Shown: positions 54,871-62,400 of the stretch, in pieces
Position numbering within the stretch: the stretch's first letter is position 1
Layout: each line of letters begins with the position of its first letter
Assembly (NCBI GenBank): GCA_001986395.2
Contig: MQVO02000038.1
Span: 124,001 to 188,000 of the forward strand
Direction: 5' to 3'
Origin: Irpex lacteus
Taxonomy: Eukaryota > Basidiomycota > Agaricomycetes > Polyporales > Irpicaceae
Length of the DNA stretch: 64,000 nucleotides
The notes under the pieces: generated by a model
What the model was told of the DNA's origin: nothing
Seen by the model: only the letters and a program-made list of their open reading frames with translations
Databases searched by the model: none
Program-made: the position numbers and the translations under genes

Positions 54871-54898
54871 TACTGTATAAATCATACCACAGCGGATG
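54871..54898 (+). repeat. Left terminal inverted repeat of the Ulp1-DDE element
   Basis: 28 bp including the TA target site. It is followed by GTCACGCGTAACGCG, a variant of the subterminal motif at the right end. Confidence 0.85.
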
Positions 54899-55075
54899 GT
54901 CACGCGTAACGCGTATTCTATCCTGTCCGCTATTGTCCTAATGTCACACGTCACAAGGATTGTGTCCGGTTGTGACATTCAAAACATGATCGCAGTGTTT
55001 TGAGGCTCTTTGCGCACTTGAATGAACTCTATATAGCAGTTGTAATCTAGTACATTCCATATATAATCACATCCA

Positions 55076-58000
55076 TCATTCCGATTCGTCCTCCGAGGTC
55101 GAAACATTATTGTCCATCCAGTTCGGGTCACCGAACCGACTGTTCAAGGTTCGTGCACGACCAGACTTACGGAGTGGCGCAACCGACTTCACTTCTCCAT
55201 TCACCAATGCTATACCCTCGTATCCCTCTACTCCAGAGTCGTTATCACTATCAGAAAGCACCGGCACTGCAGGCTTGCGCTTCCGGCGGGAAACTTTCAC
55301 GGCTCTCTTCTTCACCTTCTGTACCGGGATACTGACATCGTCACGGGTCTCGTCGTCTTCGCACGGAACCTGATCTTCAACAGGTTCGTCAACAGGTGTA
55401 GGGGCGTCTTGACTACGTCCTGCTGTAATTTCCGTGTAGAATGCCGTCCGGGCGATCCTGTTAAGCTCCTGGCGCATAGCGGGGCTTGAAAGGCTCTTGT
55501 ACGACAGGTTGAACGTTCCGGCCGTGCATTTCTCCCAAACCTATTCGGAAAACGTAAGTTAACTTTCGTGGATACTCAGCTTGAACATATTCTGTGCGTA
55601 CCTTTGTTATAAATTCCTTGTCATTAATGGCCTCGTAGCCTCGTACCATCCACTCAACGGATCGGTCACGCAGCACGCCGATCGACTTGTCGAGTTTGAT
55701 GTCTGGTGCAGGTATGCCCTCGCGAAGCTTCTCCATCGTTTCTTCGACAACATGTTTATGTGCTGATCGTTTTATGGCGTGTTTGAGAGGGCGCTGGATT
55801 CCGACGTCGCAGGGTTGGGCAAGACCGGTACAACCTCCGGGAACATAGTTGATGAGGATCCACGGGTGCGTCTTCTGCATCCACTCCCGGAACTCGCGCG
55901 AGCGATGGACTGACCAAATATCGATAAGCCACAGGCACTTCTGATCAGGTCGCTCGAAGAGGTCCTTCTGTTTGGTAAAGTATGGCGCGAGAATGTCGGT
56001 AACATAGCTGCGCATCGTTTGTTGAGTTGACCAATACGTCTTCGAGTGGGACAATTCAAACTTGAAGCCGAGCTCCGTCGCGCGATCTGTCATGTTCGCA
56101 TTTGAGGAAGGGAGTGAACGTTTTGCTGCACCATGATAGACGGCCTGGAATGGGAGGGCTTCCCCACTCATCGAAACCCCTACGACAAGAGTAAACGCTC
56201 GCTTCTCTTCCTTTCCCTCGACCTGGACTTGCTTCGCTCCTGCAATGTCGTAAGTGAATTTCCCGTCAGTGGAGTAAACGACTTGTGTTTGATCGGTATT
56301 AACAATGAACGGAGCAGTGATGTCTTCGTCACGAATAGCAGCTGCCATGCGCAAAGACAGCCGCCGTATCAGCTCATCTGCGTCTGACGGAACCTTCTGT
56401 CCCGCACGAGTAGCTCGACGAAGTGACCAGCCAAGATTCCGCTTGAGGAAACGACGAACGAAAGCTTCAGAACAAACGAAGCGTTGATTTCCGTGTACAG
56501 GTGTTTCGAAGAGCTCGGGGGCGTGGTGCGTGATGATCCCGATCATGAGACCACGAACGGTAACAAGGTCAAGCTTGACAGATGCCGACCGCAGAGACTT
56601 CAGCAGATCCTTGATTGCGGTGGCGACTTGTGGATGCGCAGCCTGGGAACATCTAAGTGAGTGTCTCCTCCACGTAGAAGAATAGATAAACTAACCAAAA
56701 TTCCTTGCCTAGTAACGTTCCCTCTTGCGAGATTTCCATCTGCTGCTCGTCGCTGCACACTTTCAGTCCATACAAGCTTGTCAGGGAAGTTCTTGTCGCG
56801 CCAGTCCGATATGCGCTGTGCCTGAAACTGGGCAAAGCTGCGGGGGTTGACAGCGCGAAGGCGATCTCGAATCTTGGTAGGCTCCCAGGGTCTTCCCACG
56901 TAGTCGCATGCATCAAGAATCTGTTTCCATAACGCAGGCTGCTGCCAGTTTACGCGACTTGCAGTATTGTTCTTGGTAAGTGTCTTCTCGCTTTTAGGGC
57001 GACCTCGCTTTCCACTCTGAGTCTTCAGTAACGAGTTCTTCAGCTGGCGATAGGGACGTGAATCGTCAGCTACAGTCGATGTGGACTCATTCTGTGATGT
57101 CCCGATATCATCGAAGGCTTTCAGCTTTCGTGTCTAGAGTCATGGGAATTAGTATGGCGTATGACGGTGATCCGCTGCAGATGGTAACGTACCTTTACCG
57201 ACCGGCCCTTCACTGGAATACCCTCTGACTCTCTCTCCTTTCGTTTTGCAGCGCGATGCTTCTGCTGGCGGTTGCGATTCTTTTCTCGCTTCTTGTCTGC
57301 CACCCTCTGCCTGTCCACTTCCTCCGCCTCAAGACGCTTCTCTCGGCGCTCTGCCACGGCAGCCCACTCTCGTGCTTCCTGTACTTCTCTTTCTTCTTTC
57401 GATAGTTTGGGAAAGAAGTCGGTAATAGGCCCAGCCGTCTTCTTCCTAGTACTCAAGTCTTCGACCTGTGCACTAGACTCATTATGGTGAGTGTAAGTTT
57501 CCGAATCATCTGAGATGTCGTCTTCATCCAAGTCTGAGCCAGCACGACTGGAGGAAGAGAATGCGTCGGAGTGGTATGCTCCAGAACGCGCACGCTTGAA
57601 TGTGGGGAGTGCACTATCGGCGTCGAATTCTGCTGCCAGTGCTATCGCCTCATCATCGGAATCAGTCATACGGATTCGTTTCCCCTTAGCAGTGGTCGAA
57701 GGTGACGTATGCTTTGAAGGCGCAGACACAACAGGTATGGAAATCTCCGGTGTACGTCGACTGCTACTTGAAGCTAGCGCATAGGATGAACGCTTGACAG
57801 GGGACACGAACGTGAACTTCGCGCCTACGGCTTTATCAGCAAACGATGCAGATCGGAATGCAGACTGCAACGATTCAACGCGCTACGGGATAGGTGATCA
57901 ATACAAAATGTCATGACTTCGAATTGCTGGTACTCACGTTGTCGAGATGTATCTGACAGATCTCCAGGAAATATCGCATCCGCAGGTGAGCAATGCTCTC

Positions 58001-59122
58001 CTGATCAGGTTGTACCAGCGGGTGGCGGAGTAGAGCTTGCTCAAGACCGTTAACAGCAAGTATTCCACAGGACCAGATGTCCCCTGGCTTCTGCTGTGTC
58101 ACCGGAAGTGTCTGAATAGGCCACTCTCCTCCTCCGTCTTCTTTAGGTACTGCCCCGAGTCCAGCCAACCTGTCAAGCCACCAAGTGAACACTGCCCTGA
58201 TATGAGCAGGCATCTTCCCGCCGAAGGAGTCTCCGTAACCCAGGGTGCGTGCTTTCAAATCAAGTACGAAGAATGTCCAATGGTTCTCATTAATGAATAT
58301 GATGCCACCAACGACCGTTTTATAGCCAGCGATGATGTCTGCCTCGATGCGACGAAGTGTCTTGAGACGTTTGTCACTGTCAATGGTCTTCGGATCTGCG
58401 CTCCGTGCGGTGTCCAAAGCCTCAACAAACTCTACATCCAAGATGGCTTCTGACGATATCGTTCCGGAAAGGGATTGCTTTATGCGTAGCAGCTCTAACA
58501 GCTGACGGATCTGCTCTCCAGGTAAAGGTCGGCTGCCTAGGAATCGCGACAGATCCCTGACAAAGCGACCACTCGTTGCACCTGACACAGAGTCTTCCCA
58601 GCGTAGCTCAGCAAACATACTGAGCACACGCTTCTGTAAGCCTCGGCCCTCTGATGTACCGCAGGCATGCTTTTCGACCCACTGAGCGGCTGCCGCCCAA
58701 TCACGGCGATGCTCTCTTGCTTCGAAGGCTCTCTGCCAGAATGTAATGATCCAGAGCGGAAATCGGCCAGGGATAGTATGATGCAGAGGGTTTAGATGGT
58801 GTGGGATGATGGATTGTAATGAGGTGAGCTTGGACTCTTCAATTGCCTTCGCAAGCTTCGTGATGACTTCAAGTGACGGCAGCGGGACACTTGCCAGTGT
58901 AGCGAGTCCAGTGTCTGCACTGGGCGGAAGATGAGAGAACCATTCTTCGATTTCCAGGGATGAGTCAAGATGTGCGGCTGAGACGTGCGGAAGCTGCTCG
59001 TATCTCAGCAAACTCGTAATCCATGCAGGAGGTAAAGCGACGGATTGGATTGTAGCAGGAACAGTGAGTGCGGTGTCGGGCTTTGGGTCGTCATGAGTAA
59101 GATCTATGGCTGCTCCAGCCAT
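55076..59122 (-). CDS. Ulp1/SENP-type peptidase fused to a pogo-like DDE transposase
   Basis: Five exons (59,122-57,938; 57,882-57,193; 57,133-56,696; 56,642-55,602; 55,540-55,076), all joined in phase 0, give 1,272 residues without a stop. Residues about 265-390 are a C48 (Ulp1) peptidase: His281 (NENHWTFFVLDL), Asp298 (YGDSFGG), Gln344 and Cys352 (IWSCGILAVNGL). A charged linker follows, with a PCNA-box-like GPITDFFPK and a Lys/Arg-rich coiled stretch, then an AT-hook-like GKRGRPKS. Residues about 880-1080 are a DDE_1 nuclease: Asp888 (VNTDQT), Asp1012 (IDIWSVH) and Asp1050 (QPCDVG). The tail is acidic and Ser-rich. The peptidase could cleave SUMO or a related modifier from host or transposase protein; this is inference. 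The start is the first ATG in the frame. Confidence 0.85.
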
Positions 59123-59356
59123 GCTCACTATGCGGGCAACTGCAAGTGTGTTGGGCAAACACGTAGTATTGTCTTCAGAGGCTAAAATTACTGATACATG
59201 ATTCCGATACGCTATTGGCTGGTGAATCGTGACATCCCGCCTCCGTCACTCCATGTCACATTGTCGCGACATCGTCCGCTAACATTGATCCGTCACAGCT
59301 CATCCGTCGCTCGTCCGCTCATCCGCAATGAAACTTTTTGTCACGCGTCACACCTT

Positions 59357-59384
59357 CATCCGCTATGGTATGATTTATACAGTA
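59357..59384 (-). repeat. Right terminal inverted repeat of the Ulp1-DDE element
   Basis: 28 bp including the TA target site, with one mismatch to the left repeat. It is preceded on the inner side by GTCACGCGTCACA and an array of ATCCG/GTCCG motifs from about 59,265. Confidence 0.85.
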
Positions 59385-59466
59385 CCTACAGTGTTCTGGC
59401 AAACCAAAAGGAACTCGTGGCAGGTCAACCGCACAACCCACAACTGCCTCTGGGAGCGCCCATACT

Positions 59467-62400
59467 TTGGATTTCATTGCCGCGCAGCAAGGTTGGGTGC
59501 GGCGCAAAGTCGGTTCTGATTCTCCCTTAACCACCACTCCCTCGAGTCGACCTAGAGTTCGTTCTCGCTCACGATCCCCAGAAATCAAATATCGCTCTGT
59601 TCCCTGTGCTGGCGTGACTGAGGTTGTTGATTCTTTTATTACTCAGTATCTCTCGCGCGCGACCGATGGGACAGGTGGTGCTCGCGCGAAACCGAAGATT
59701 GCTGAAGAGCTCTTTGGTGTTAAATACAGTGCTCTGGATGACGAGAAGAGACGCGAAGTAGACCGGGTGCATCGACATGGAAAGACGTGGCATGTTGACC
59801 GTGCGTTGAGTGCCGTCTTCTCTACGCAATGTTTAAAGAAGGTTCGCGTGCCAGCCACACTTGATCTCTCGTCGAGTTCTTTGCTCGATGAACAACAGAG
59901 GTCTTCGCTCCAGCTTTGTGCAGAATGTAGTAAGCTCTCCAAGGACTCTTACTTCAGATCAGCCATTCGACGTCCCGTGCCTGAGCCTGAAAATCGCAAG
60001 TTTGCTAATAAACAGCATCTTGGCGAGGCAGTGGTTGCGATCTTTGCCAAGTACCGTGGTCTGGAGGATATCCTTGTGGGAGGTAAATCGAAGGTTCGTC
60101 TGTGAATGTTTGTGCTAGTCTTGACATCTCTTTCTCACTATACTTCATAGAAAAACTCTGAGTTCGCACAGCTTGCAGTCGCTCTCATGAACGGAAGCCT
60201 GGGACCTGATACGGATGTACTCAAAGATATATTCACGGCCTTACTGGAGCTAAGGAAACGAGAGGACCGAGGCAAAGGAAAGCAGAATTTCACCTACGGC
60301 CCTGCTCTCCTAGAGTTTGCGAACGTCGCTCTTCTTATCAGCCCGCAGCTTTACCGTATCATCAAGCAAACACTCGGTGTGTTGCCAAACGAGCGGTCTA
60401 TCAAGTATGTTATTTAACCTCTTAAGTTGGTCATGCTTTTCTGAATCAAACGTAGGCGAGTGCAATCAAGTGTACCACGCTTCCCCATTGGTCTTGTTGA
60501 AGGCGTGTTCGTTCGTGCAGCAGAATACCTGCTGAAACTGAAGTACAATGGCCCACTCGCTTTAAGCTGTGATGATACAAAGCTTCATGCAGCGCTTCGC
60601 ACTTGCTGGGACTCGGAGACTAAGAATCACATTCTCATTGGCGGAGTGGGTGAGCCACGTATTGTTGCAAGCCCGGAAGAGCTTGAGAAGGCTCTACAAG
60701 AGTTGGACGTTCAAAAAGCTTCGAAAGTGAGCCTCTTGACTTATGTTGTTTTACGTTACTAGTACTAAATTGAACTCTTGTAACCTGCAACTCGAAAGCT
60801 TCGGCTTTGGTGCTTGCACATGGTCGGTGTCCCCAAGTTGCCTCCGATCATTCTTGCAGCCAAAGCAATCCCTGACGACCTGAAAGTACCGGAGCTTACC
60901 GAAATGAGCAACTTTATTATTCATGGCTGTCGACGACATAATCTTAATGTCGTTTCTTATTCTTGCGATGGAACAGATACCGAACGAGGAGTGCAGAATA
61001 GTCTCGTCGAACTCGCACCTCAACATCGTACATACACCCTCCCACATCCTGTGTCCGGCTGTAAGGACATTGTCATCAAGATCGCTCTTGTCGACGCAAA
61101 GCCCATCGTTATGATACAAGACTCGAACCACGGAAGGAAAACTCTTCGCAACAACCTTATGTCCGGTGCTCGAGTGCTGAATCTCGGAAACGATGTGGCA
61201 ACATACGAAGATGCTCGCAAGCTCGCGTTTGATGCCGTCCCAGGGCCATGCTACCATCGTGACTTTGAGAAAGTCGATCGACAGGACGACAACGCCGCTA
61301 TTCGCACATTTTCCGCATCCGCAGTTCAATTTCTCGCAGAACAACATCCGGAATGTGTTGGTCTCATTGTATATCTATTCGTTTTTGGGGATCTCATCGA
61401 CGCCTATCAAAATCGACACATAAACCACGAAGAACGCCTTACAATGGCCCTCCGTGCATACCACTTCCTCGACACCTGGCGTGCTTATCTCGCCTTTATA
61501 GGATATCCTGAAGCGCGCTATTGCATCTCCCGCCAGGCCATCGATATCGTCGAACGCCTCGTCTTTGGCATCATTAGTCTTGTCCTCGTGTATCGCGACT
61601 TCCCAGACGACCACTCTAGCCCCTTGCTCCCGTGGTTGCATTCGACTGAGACTTGCGAGCACGTTTTCGGTGAATGTCGCAAATTAGTCAAGGACTTCAC
61701 CTACCTTGACTTCTTATACTCGGTTCCGAAGCTTCATGTTCTCCTGCGGGGCATCATTCATCTGGGGCTTTCTAGTGACGCAAAAGCGAGAGCGTCTGGA
61801 TACTCGCATATATACTTCAGTGGTGAAGTTGATGCTGCCGCGCTGTTGCAATTTCCCTCCAATGAGCGTATTAACGTACTGAATTCTGTCGCTTTCGATG
61901 AACAGGAGTCGCTTTGGGATGTCTTAGGAGTATCTGCCCGACACGTACTTACGACTAGTAGTGCCAGCATTAGTGCCATGGCTCTGCCTAGTATATCCTC
62001 ATGGTGGCAGGACGGCCATGATCCAGCCCATACCTCATCAGCAACAGAGTTCTCAGCGTCGGATGACCCGTTCGACTTCAGTCTCAATGTCCAGGACACC
62101 GACAGCGCATCAGAAGACTACAAGGATAATCTACCACTGGATGATGAAGTCTCGGAGGACGACCTTCGAAACACAATCAACAGCGGGTTGGCAGCGTCTG
62201 GTCGCAAGATGAAAGATGACAACCGTGTCGAGCAGTTGGCATGTGCAGCGGTAATGCTCACCTTAAGTGACACAGCCCGCATGTAAGTCTACTGTTTTGA
62301 TCGGAGTATACATCCGTTAACTAACTTTTGACCTTACCGTCTCAGGCAAGAGATCCAGGACAGCGTGAGTGACGAGCAGCTGGAACGCTTCGAGGCGGAG

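Follow-up and report, generated by a model that had tools for sequence, protein, structure and literature searches.

Can the enzyme that moves a transposon and a peptidase of the kind that removes protein tags be built into one protein? This question is raised by positions 54871-59384 of the 64,000-nucleotide stretch of Irpex lacteus contig MQVO02000038.1 that was analysed here (the window), which an original prediction made from the sequence alone read as a DNA transposon whose single gene fuses a Ulp1-type peptidase to a pogo-type DDE transposase. Our analyses support this reading. The locus is a divergent element of the pogo superfamily with a real and well-preserved fusion, and this fusion is repeated in three families.

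Anatomy of the element

The element is 4,510 bp long, and the interval 54871-59384 adds the flanking TA at both ends. These boundaries were predicted exactly, with the left TA starting at 54871 and the right one ending at 59384, and the matched terminal inverted repeats (TIRs) with TA duplications are indeed present: 26 bp with one mismatch, and a TA on both sides. A TA is also found at each end of a second full-length copy, of three miniature inverted-repeat transposable elements (MITEs) and of two other families (L037 and L038), all described below. Between the ends lies a single minus-strand gene with five exons encoding 1,272 amino acids plus a stop, and its four introns, of 53-61 nt, are all GT-AG and all in phase 0. 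At the sequence level the proposed five-exon frame, with its four phase-0 junctions, translates as one protein of 1,272 residues to the stop, and all six catalytic residues (His281, Asp298, Cys352; Asp888, Asp1012, Asp1050) stand where they had been placed. Splicing and a fused protein in the cell are predicted from this frame. The features are as follows.

54871..54872, no strand: left TA target-site duplication; TA is also at the ends of copies and relatives
54873..54898, + strand: left TIR, 26 bp, 25 of 26 positions matched
55076..55540, - strand: exon 5, residues 1119-1272 and stop
55602..56642, - strand: exon 4, residues 772-1118, a helical start resembling a helix-turn-helix (HTH), then the RNase H-fold DDE_1 domain
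55806..55808, - strand: catalytic Asp1050, at least 90% conserved in the DDE alignment
55920..55922, - strand: catalytic Asp1012, invariant in the DDE alignment
56292..56294, - strand: catalytic Asp888, invariant in the DDE alignment
56696..57133, - strand: exon 3, residues 626-771, possible first DNA-binding region (speculative)
57193..57882, - strand: exon 2, residues 396-625, variable acidic/coiled linker
57412..57435, - strand: AGPITDFF, residues 545-552, a speculative pattern match resembling a PCNA-interacting peptide (PIP) box, without Gln
57883..57937, - strand: intron 1, 55 nt, phase 0; retention leads to a stop after 8 codons
57938..59122, - strand: exon 1, residues 1-395, Ulp1/C48 module (N-terminal extension 1-165, peptidase about 166-395)
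58067..58069, - strand: catalytic Cys352, invariant across 7 aligned modules
58229..58231, - strand: catalytic Asp298, aligned with the Ulp1 Asp
58280..58282, - strand: catalytic His281, aligned with the Ulp1 His
59357..59382, - strand: right TIR, 26 bp, 25 of 26 positions matched
59383..59384, no strand: right TA target-site duplication

The exon 3 region is conserved between families and matches no Pfam family. A PIP-box-like motif is also seen in the linker of L037 (TASLAAFF, residues 529-536, again without Gln), by pattern match only. A peptide modelled on DNA ligase and the pogo transposase binds PCNA (PMC4103810).

The transposase

The window protein matches DDE_1 (PF03184) at 35.7 bits, against a cut-off of 22. 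The predicted fold of this domain resembles Mos1 and SETMAR, the RNase H fold of Tc1/mariner type that is common to pogo elements, and the gene is colinear with L059 (C92), a canonical pogo-type locus of the same genome, which carries HTH_Tnp_Tc5 and DDE_1 and has no Ulp among its three listed open reading frames (ORFs) of at least 150 aa. The 37 residues that separate D1012 and D1050 (DD37D) fit the DD29-59D range published for the pogo superfamily (PMC7386202). The Fot family was rejected because it is expected to have DD35D. In common with the pogo superfamily of IS630-Tc1-mariner elements there are a DDE_1 domain with three Asp, a TA duplication, where the superfamily also admits TAA or TAAA, and a TIR below 40 bp (PMC7386202). 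The differences are the N-terminal Ulp1 module, the lack of a Pfam match to any HTH (CENP-B_N, HTH_Tnp_Tc5 or others) in the window protein, and a length of 1,272 aa, which exceeds the published 300-977 aa, a range that is descriptive rather than diagnostic (PMC7386202). The helical start of exon 4 does align with the HTH_Tnp_Tc5 region of L059, as a weak match (Prob only 27.5).

The peptidase module

A profile built from seven modules finds yeast Ulp1 at 2.9e-12, together with SENP1, SENP2 and SENP5, and the predicted fold of the module matches SENP/Ulp1, that is, the C48 fold. The His-Asp-Cys triad is in C48 order and is retained by pogo-type modules down to 27-28% identity. The module thus shares triad, fold and profile match with the Ulp1/SENP peptidases of family C48, and differs from them in an N-terminal extension of about 165 aa and, in the pogo-type modules, at the WLND motif that is weighed below. 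Residues 1-165 fall outside the Ulp1/SENP alignment, in which no row begins before profile position 155.

Copies and related families

The 44.3 Mb genome was searched over its 317 contigs, and counts from these searches are lower bounds. A second full-length copy at C54:259105-263614 (the C54 twin) is also 4,510 bp long and 92.4% identical to the window copy over 4,527 columns. Its five exons are in frame and encode 1,272 aa without a premature stop, and all four GT-AG boundaries are kept. Searches with both element ends found no further full copies, but short elements instead. Two of these are MITEs of 269 bp, counting both TAs, with the ends of this family; they lie in differing flanks and are identical to each other at 263 of 269 positions (L007 1070-1338 and L057 196-464). 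A third MITE, of 279 bp, carries the ends of the L037 family (L058 274-552).

The two other families are each represented by a complete element with TIRs and TA. L037 (C54:672500-682400) has five exons and four phase-0 introns at the same places. L038 (C185:1569000-1578900) has the same architecture and encodes 1,151 aa; at its junctions 2 and 4, splice choices made on score only were replaced by the phase-0 pairs GTAAGT/ATCTAG and GTGAGT/CGGAAG. Compared with the window copy, the Ulp modules of L037 and L038 are 43% and 28% identical, and the DDE exons 70% and 48%. Three families and four open genes therefore have one domain order and introns at the same places. The original prediction had named relatives in which peptidase and DDE parts are always separate genes as evidence that would count against it; what we find is three fused families with the same introns.

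DDE_1 is matched 13 times in the genome; of the 7 matches whose surroundings were read, 4 are in Ulp-bearing elements and the others are L040, L041 and L059. No Ulp module was found in the 9.9 kb around each of four other DDE loci (L039-L042), including the DDE_1 loci on C309 (L041) and C1 (L040). One of the four, L039 3884-5975 (C18), is a decayed relative interrupted by stops and frame breaks, and its locus shows no Ulp module.

Selection and possible recent activity

The window copy and its C54 twin differ by a synonymous divergence (dS) of 0.23, with an overall ratio of non-synonymous to synonymous divergence (dN/dS) of 0.121. By region, dN/dS is 0.120 for exon 1 (bootstrap 0.071-0.201), 0.071 for the peptidase core, residues 231-395 (0.029-0.128), 0.203 for the exon 2 linker (0.118-0.327) and 0.042 for the DDE part of exon 4 (0.013-0.092). 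Under purifying selection on both halves, both enzymes have been maintained, unlike a passive passenger. The introns are 79-84% identical by column between the full copies, with an indel of 8 nt in intron 3 and one of 6 nt in intron 4. Because the exons are open in the second copy despite these intron indels, and two other families repeat the architecture, the fusion goes beyond chance.

The suggestion that the element is or was recently active is weakly supported. At a dS of 0.23 the two full copies do not represent a recent burst, and the search for an empty site was negative: the joined flanks, used as a query, returned just both flanks themselves and one partial match of 76%. The near-identical MITE pair is a better sign of later movement than the full-length pair.

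Relatives in public data

At E <= 0.001, 694 relatives of the DDE exon were found among candidates limited to 0.55-1.75 times the exon length, and most of those listed are exon-sized ORFs. The nearest of the 120 that were listed is 92% identical, and the named organisms among these 120 are basidiomycetes, e.g. Armillaria, Agaricus, Polyporus, Rhizoctonia and Trametopsis. The Ulp module has 3 relatives in public data, one of which (P0121) is 93% identical to the module of L037. The Ulp module is missing from an Armillaria gene model (P0064, 652 aa), and a homologous linker in this Ulp-less protein was rejected as weak, with 2 of 300 shuffles reaching its score. No whole-protein homologs were found at E <= 0.001 among 7,990 scored candidates, a result of little weight as words were sampled thinly, and no relative was found in viral and prokaryote contigs scanned with the DDE alignment.

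On a midpoint-rooted DDE tree of 126 sequences, all close relatives, the Ulp-bearing tips are not monophyletic. One group (support 0.987) holds the window copy, C54 twin, L037, P0001 and P0006, another (support 0.99) holds L038, P0003 and P0011, and the common ancestor of both Ulp-bearing groups spans 65 of the 126 tips. With Ulp status established for a minority of tips, the tree fits two gains, or one gain and losses.

Ulp modules beside other transposases

Similar modules lie beside other transposases in this genome. In L044 (C214) a Ulp exon is followed by a 61-nt phase-0 candidate intron (GTATGT/CGGTAG) and a P-like transposase, between TIRs with the 8-bp duplication ACATAGGG; in L046 (C185) Ulp pieces precede a P-like transposase. 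In L045 (C58) a Ulp exon, a 64-nt phase-0 candidate intron (GTAAGC/ATATAG) and a hAT-like transposase lie between the TIRs TAGTGTTGGGCC with the 8-bp duplication AGTGCGTG, and the catalytic Asp of this module is Asn. No Pfam family exceeded its cut-off in the transposase ORFs of either type, and one hAT-like ORF, used as a query against PDB sequences, had no significant match. P-like and hAT-like are therefore provisional names, based on the 8-bp duplications, the TIRs and motifs.

L043 3355-4785 (C308) holds an open Ulp module, beside which the surrounding 9.9 kb shows no transposase ORF. It is perhaps a host gene or a domesticated relic, and has protein relatives in other data that are 100% (P0122) and 75% (P0123) identical. 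The genome has 9 matches to the Peptidase_C48 family (PF02902) above the cut-off: one is L037, three are the L043-L045 modules, two (L061 on C60; L062 at C58:2396750-2397450) resemble the L046 type by eye, and three (C58:713k, C58:569k and C212) were left unplaced. This search misses the window copy, the C54 twin, L038 and L046.

How closely are these modules related? A profile of the 165-residue N-terminal extension, built from the window copy, C54 twin, L037 and P0121, has a maximum of 11.1 bits on 2,800 shuffled decoys. L046 (34.1), P0122 (15.0) and L043 (14.8) score above this; P0123 (9.2), the pogo-type L038 (7.1), L045 (6.8) and L044 (3.6) score below. In reverse, a profile from L044, L043, P0122 and P0123 (decoy maximum 8.9) finds L046 (20.1), the window copy (16.0), C54 twin (15.8) and L038 (10.8), while L037 (8.0), P0121 (6.0) and L045 (4.2) stay under. 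For the peptidase part, the window-type profile places L038, the L044/L043 types and L045 above decoys and L046 not (3.0 against 11.7), and with the reverse profile every module beats decoys. These scores suggest that more than the peptidase fold is common to the window type and the P-like type, and that the window-type N-terminal extension is shared with L046 and L043. A common origin of all modules was rejected, because the two pogo branches stay apart on the module tree and several N-termini, among them that of the hAT-like module, score no higher than decoys. The module may have passed from one superfamily to another, or a related host gene may have been captured by each of them; the module tree is too deep to tell which.

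In the pogo-type genes and in the P-like L044, the module ends at a phase-0 intron just past the peptidase. We tentatively raise the idea, which we hold at somewhat less than an even chance, that the Ulp1 module, some 395 aa long, behaves as a portable exon and is passed among unrelated superfamilies (pogo-type, P-like and hAT-like), tag removal being a shared and exchangeable weapon against host control. The distribution suggests that such elements repeatedly use this protease tool.

Within the window, ORFs of a P-like transposase gene lie directly beside the element (59374-62283, + strand). Their product is 28-37% identical to the transposase behind the Ulp exon of L044. The window holds no Ulp module besides the element's own, and a search for TIRs of this neighbour gave a single 10-bp pair. 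The sole Rfam match at gathering threshold in the window is a tRNA gene at 2616-2704 on the - strand.

Discussion

Ulp1-like domains are also carried by KDZ/Zisupton elements. Their presence in Mutator, CACTA and other transposons, stated in the original prediction, is borne out by PMC2836005, PMC2528002 and PMC3212892. The closest likeness is with Ginger1, where transposase and a Ulp1 or OTU peptidase are fused in one gene; there, the transposase resembles Gypsy integrases and Ulp1 is C-terminal, whereas here it is a pogo-type DDE_1 with an N-terminal Ulp1 (PMC2836005), so that membership of Ginger1 was rejected. Ulp1-bearing Mutator and CACTA elements of plants likewise have a Ulp1-like region within a cut-and-paste element, and proteins that combine Tnp2 and ULP1 domains are reported from rice, but these belong to other transposase superfamilies and plant hosts (PMC2528002, PMC2836005). 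Oomycete Cryptons are mobile elements that carry a C48 peptidase, with a tyrosine recombinase rather than a DDE enzyme and with the peptidase as an additional protein in some CryptonS elements; domain shuffling between two Crypton groups is raised by the authors (PMC3212892). In line with the claim that no pogo element with an N-terminal Ulp1 fusion had been described, we found none among the papers listed by our literature searches; the terms Ulp, C48, peptidase and pogo are absent from PMC12730594. A Ulp1 domain in a DNA transposon is already known, and what this element adds is the N-terminal fusion to a pogo-type transposase.

We think it fairly probable that this is a cut-and-paste transposon of the pogo superfamily, whose single spliced gene gives one peptidase-transposase protein with the peptidase acting in cis on ubiquitin-like tags. 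A Ulp1/SENP-type cysteine peptidase module would be joined through the linker to the DNA-binding and DDE transposase region; the transposase would excise and insert the element at TA sites through its 26-bp ends, and may also mobilise the short MITEs. The fusion would carry the peptidase to the transposition complex where, most likely in cis, it would take SUMO or another ubiquitin-like tag off the transposase or nearby chromatin and repair proteins. The movement of MITEs by this transposase, the activity and substrate of the peptidase and its benefit to the element are inferred in this account; shielding of the transposase from SUMO-based silencing, or its maturation by cleavage, as raised in the original prediction, are hypotheses.

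Several results weigh against this account. Peptidase_C48 (Pfam PF02902) is matched in the window copy at 13.6 bits (E 0.058), below the cut-off of 20.7; a single-sequence PDB search reaches yeast Ulp1 at only E 0.059, and the model of the module has a mean predicted local distance difference test score (pLDDT) of 53.8. There are just two full-length copies, the window copy and C54:259105-263614, at dS 0.23, and none of the 120 listed DDE relatives (of 694) has a Ulp module, which argues against the fusion being widespread, although most of these 120 are exon-sized. In the profile alignment the WLND motif of yeast Ulp1 precedes the catalytic His; its Trp and the Trp that follows the catalytic His clamp the SUMO tail. 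All four pogo-type genes lack the WLND Trp of Ulp1/SENP, and the Gln before the catalytic Cys is at C-8 in the window copy compared with C-6 in the L043 module. For these two reasons SUMO specificity is doubtful, and the substrate could be another ubiquitin-like tag or the protein itself. The catalytic HW is retained; W-L-(N/D)-D is kept in P-like-type modules and the Trp in the hAT-like one.

Other explanations would give the peptidase a different part. If intron 1 were often retained, the locus would yield two products, a free peptidase of 403 aa and a transposase made separately or by occasional splicing. Retention does meet a stop 8 codons in (3 in L037) and would leave a complete peptidase domain, yet in four genes of three families intron 1 keeps its place, its phase 0 and its GT-AG boundaries, and a separate transposase start was not identified, although no dedicated search was made; we regard this as unlikely. 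Entirely separate genes appear untenable given the conserved introns and the intron indels. Viral CE-clan proteases process polyproteins, and the peptidase might similarly cut the linker to free a mature transposase, which we consider quite unlikely.

That the module is a captured host Ulp1 exon that plays no part in transposition has precedent, since transposons capture host exons and ULP capture in grapevine is described as transduplication (PMC2528002). Such a passive passenger is hard to reconcile with a dN/dS of 0.071 on the peptidase core, with the same fusion in three families and with a triad retained down to 27-28% identity, and we give it very little credence. Chance neighbours or misassembly are ruled out for practical purposes by further copies at C54:259105-263614, C54:675k and C185:1573k, and P0121, from another data source, has a module 93% identical to that of L037.

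Ulp1 peptidases have no established function in the several kinds of mobile element from which they have been reported. In the element described here, one reading frame encodes both peptidase and transposase, purifying selection acts on the two jointly, and the whole is a compact 4.5 kb with MITE partners, an anatomy that makes the need of transposition for tag removal testable. If the module is shared between superfamilies, this would point to a barrier that their hosts have in common and that works through ubiquitin-like tags.

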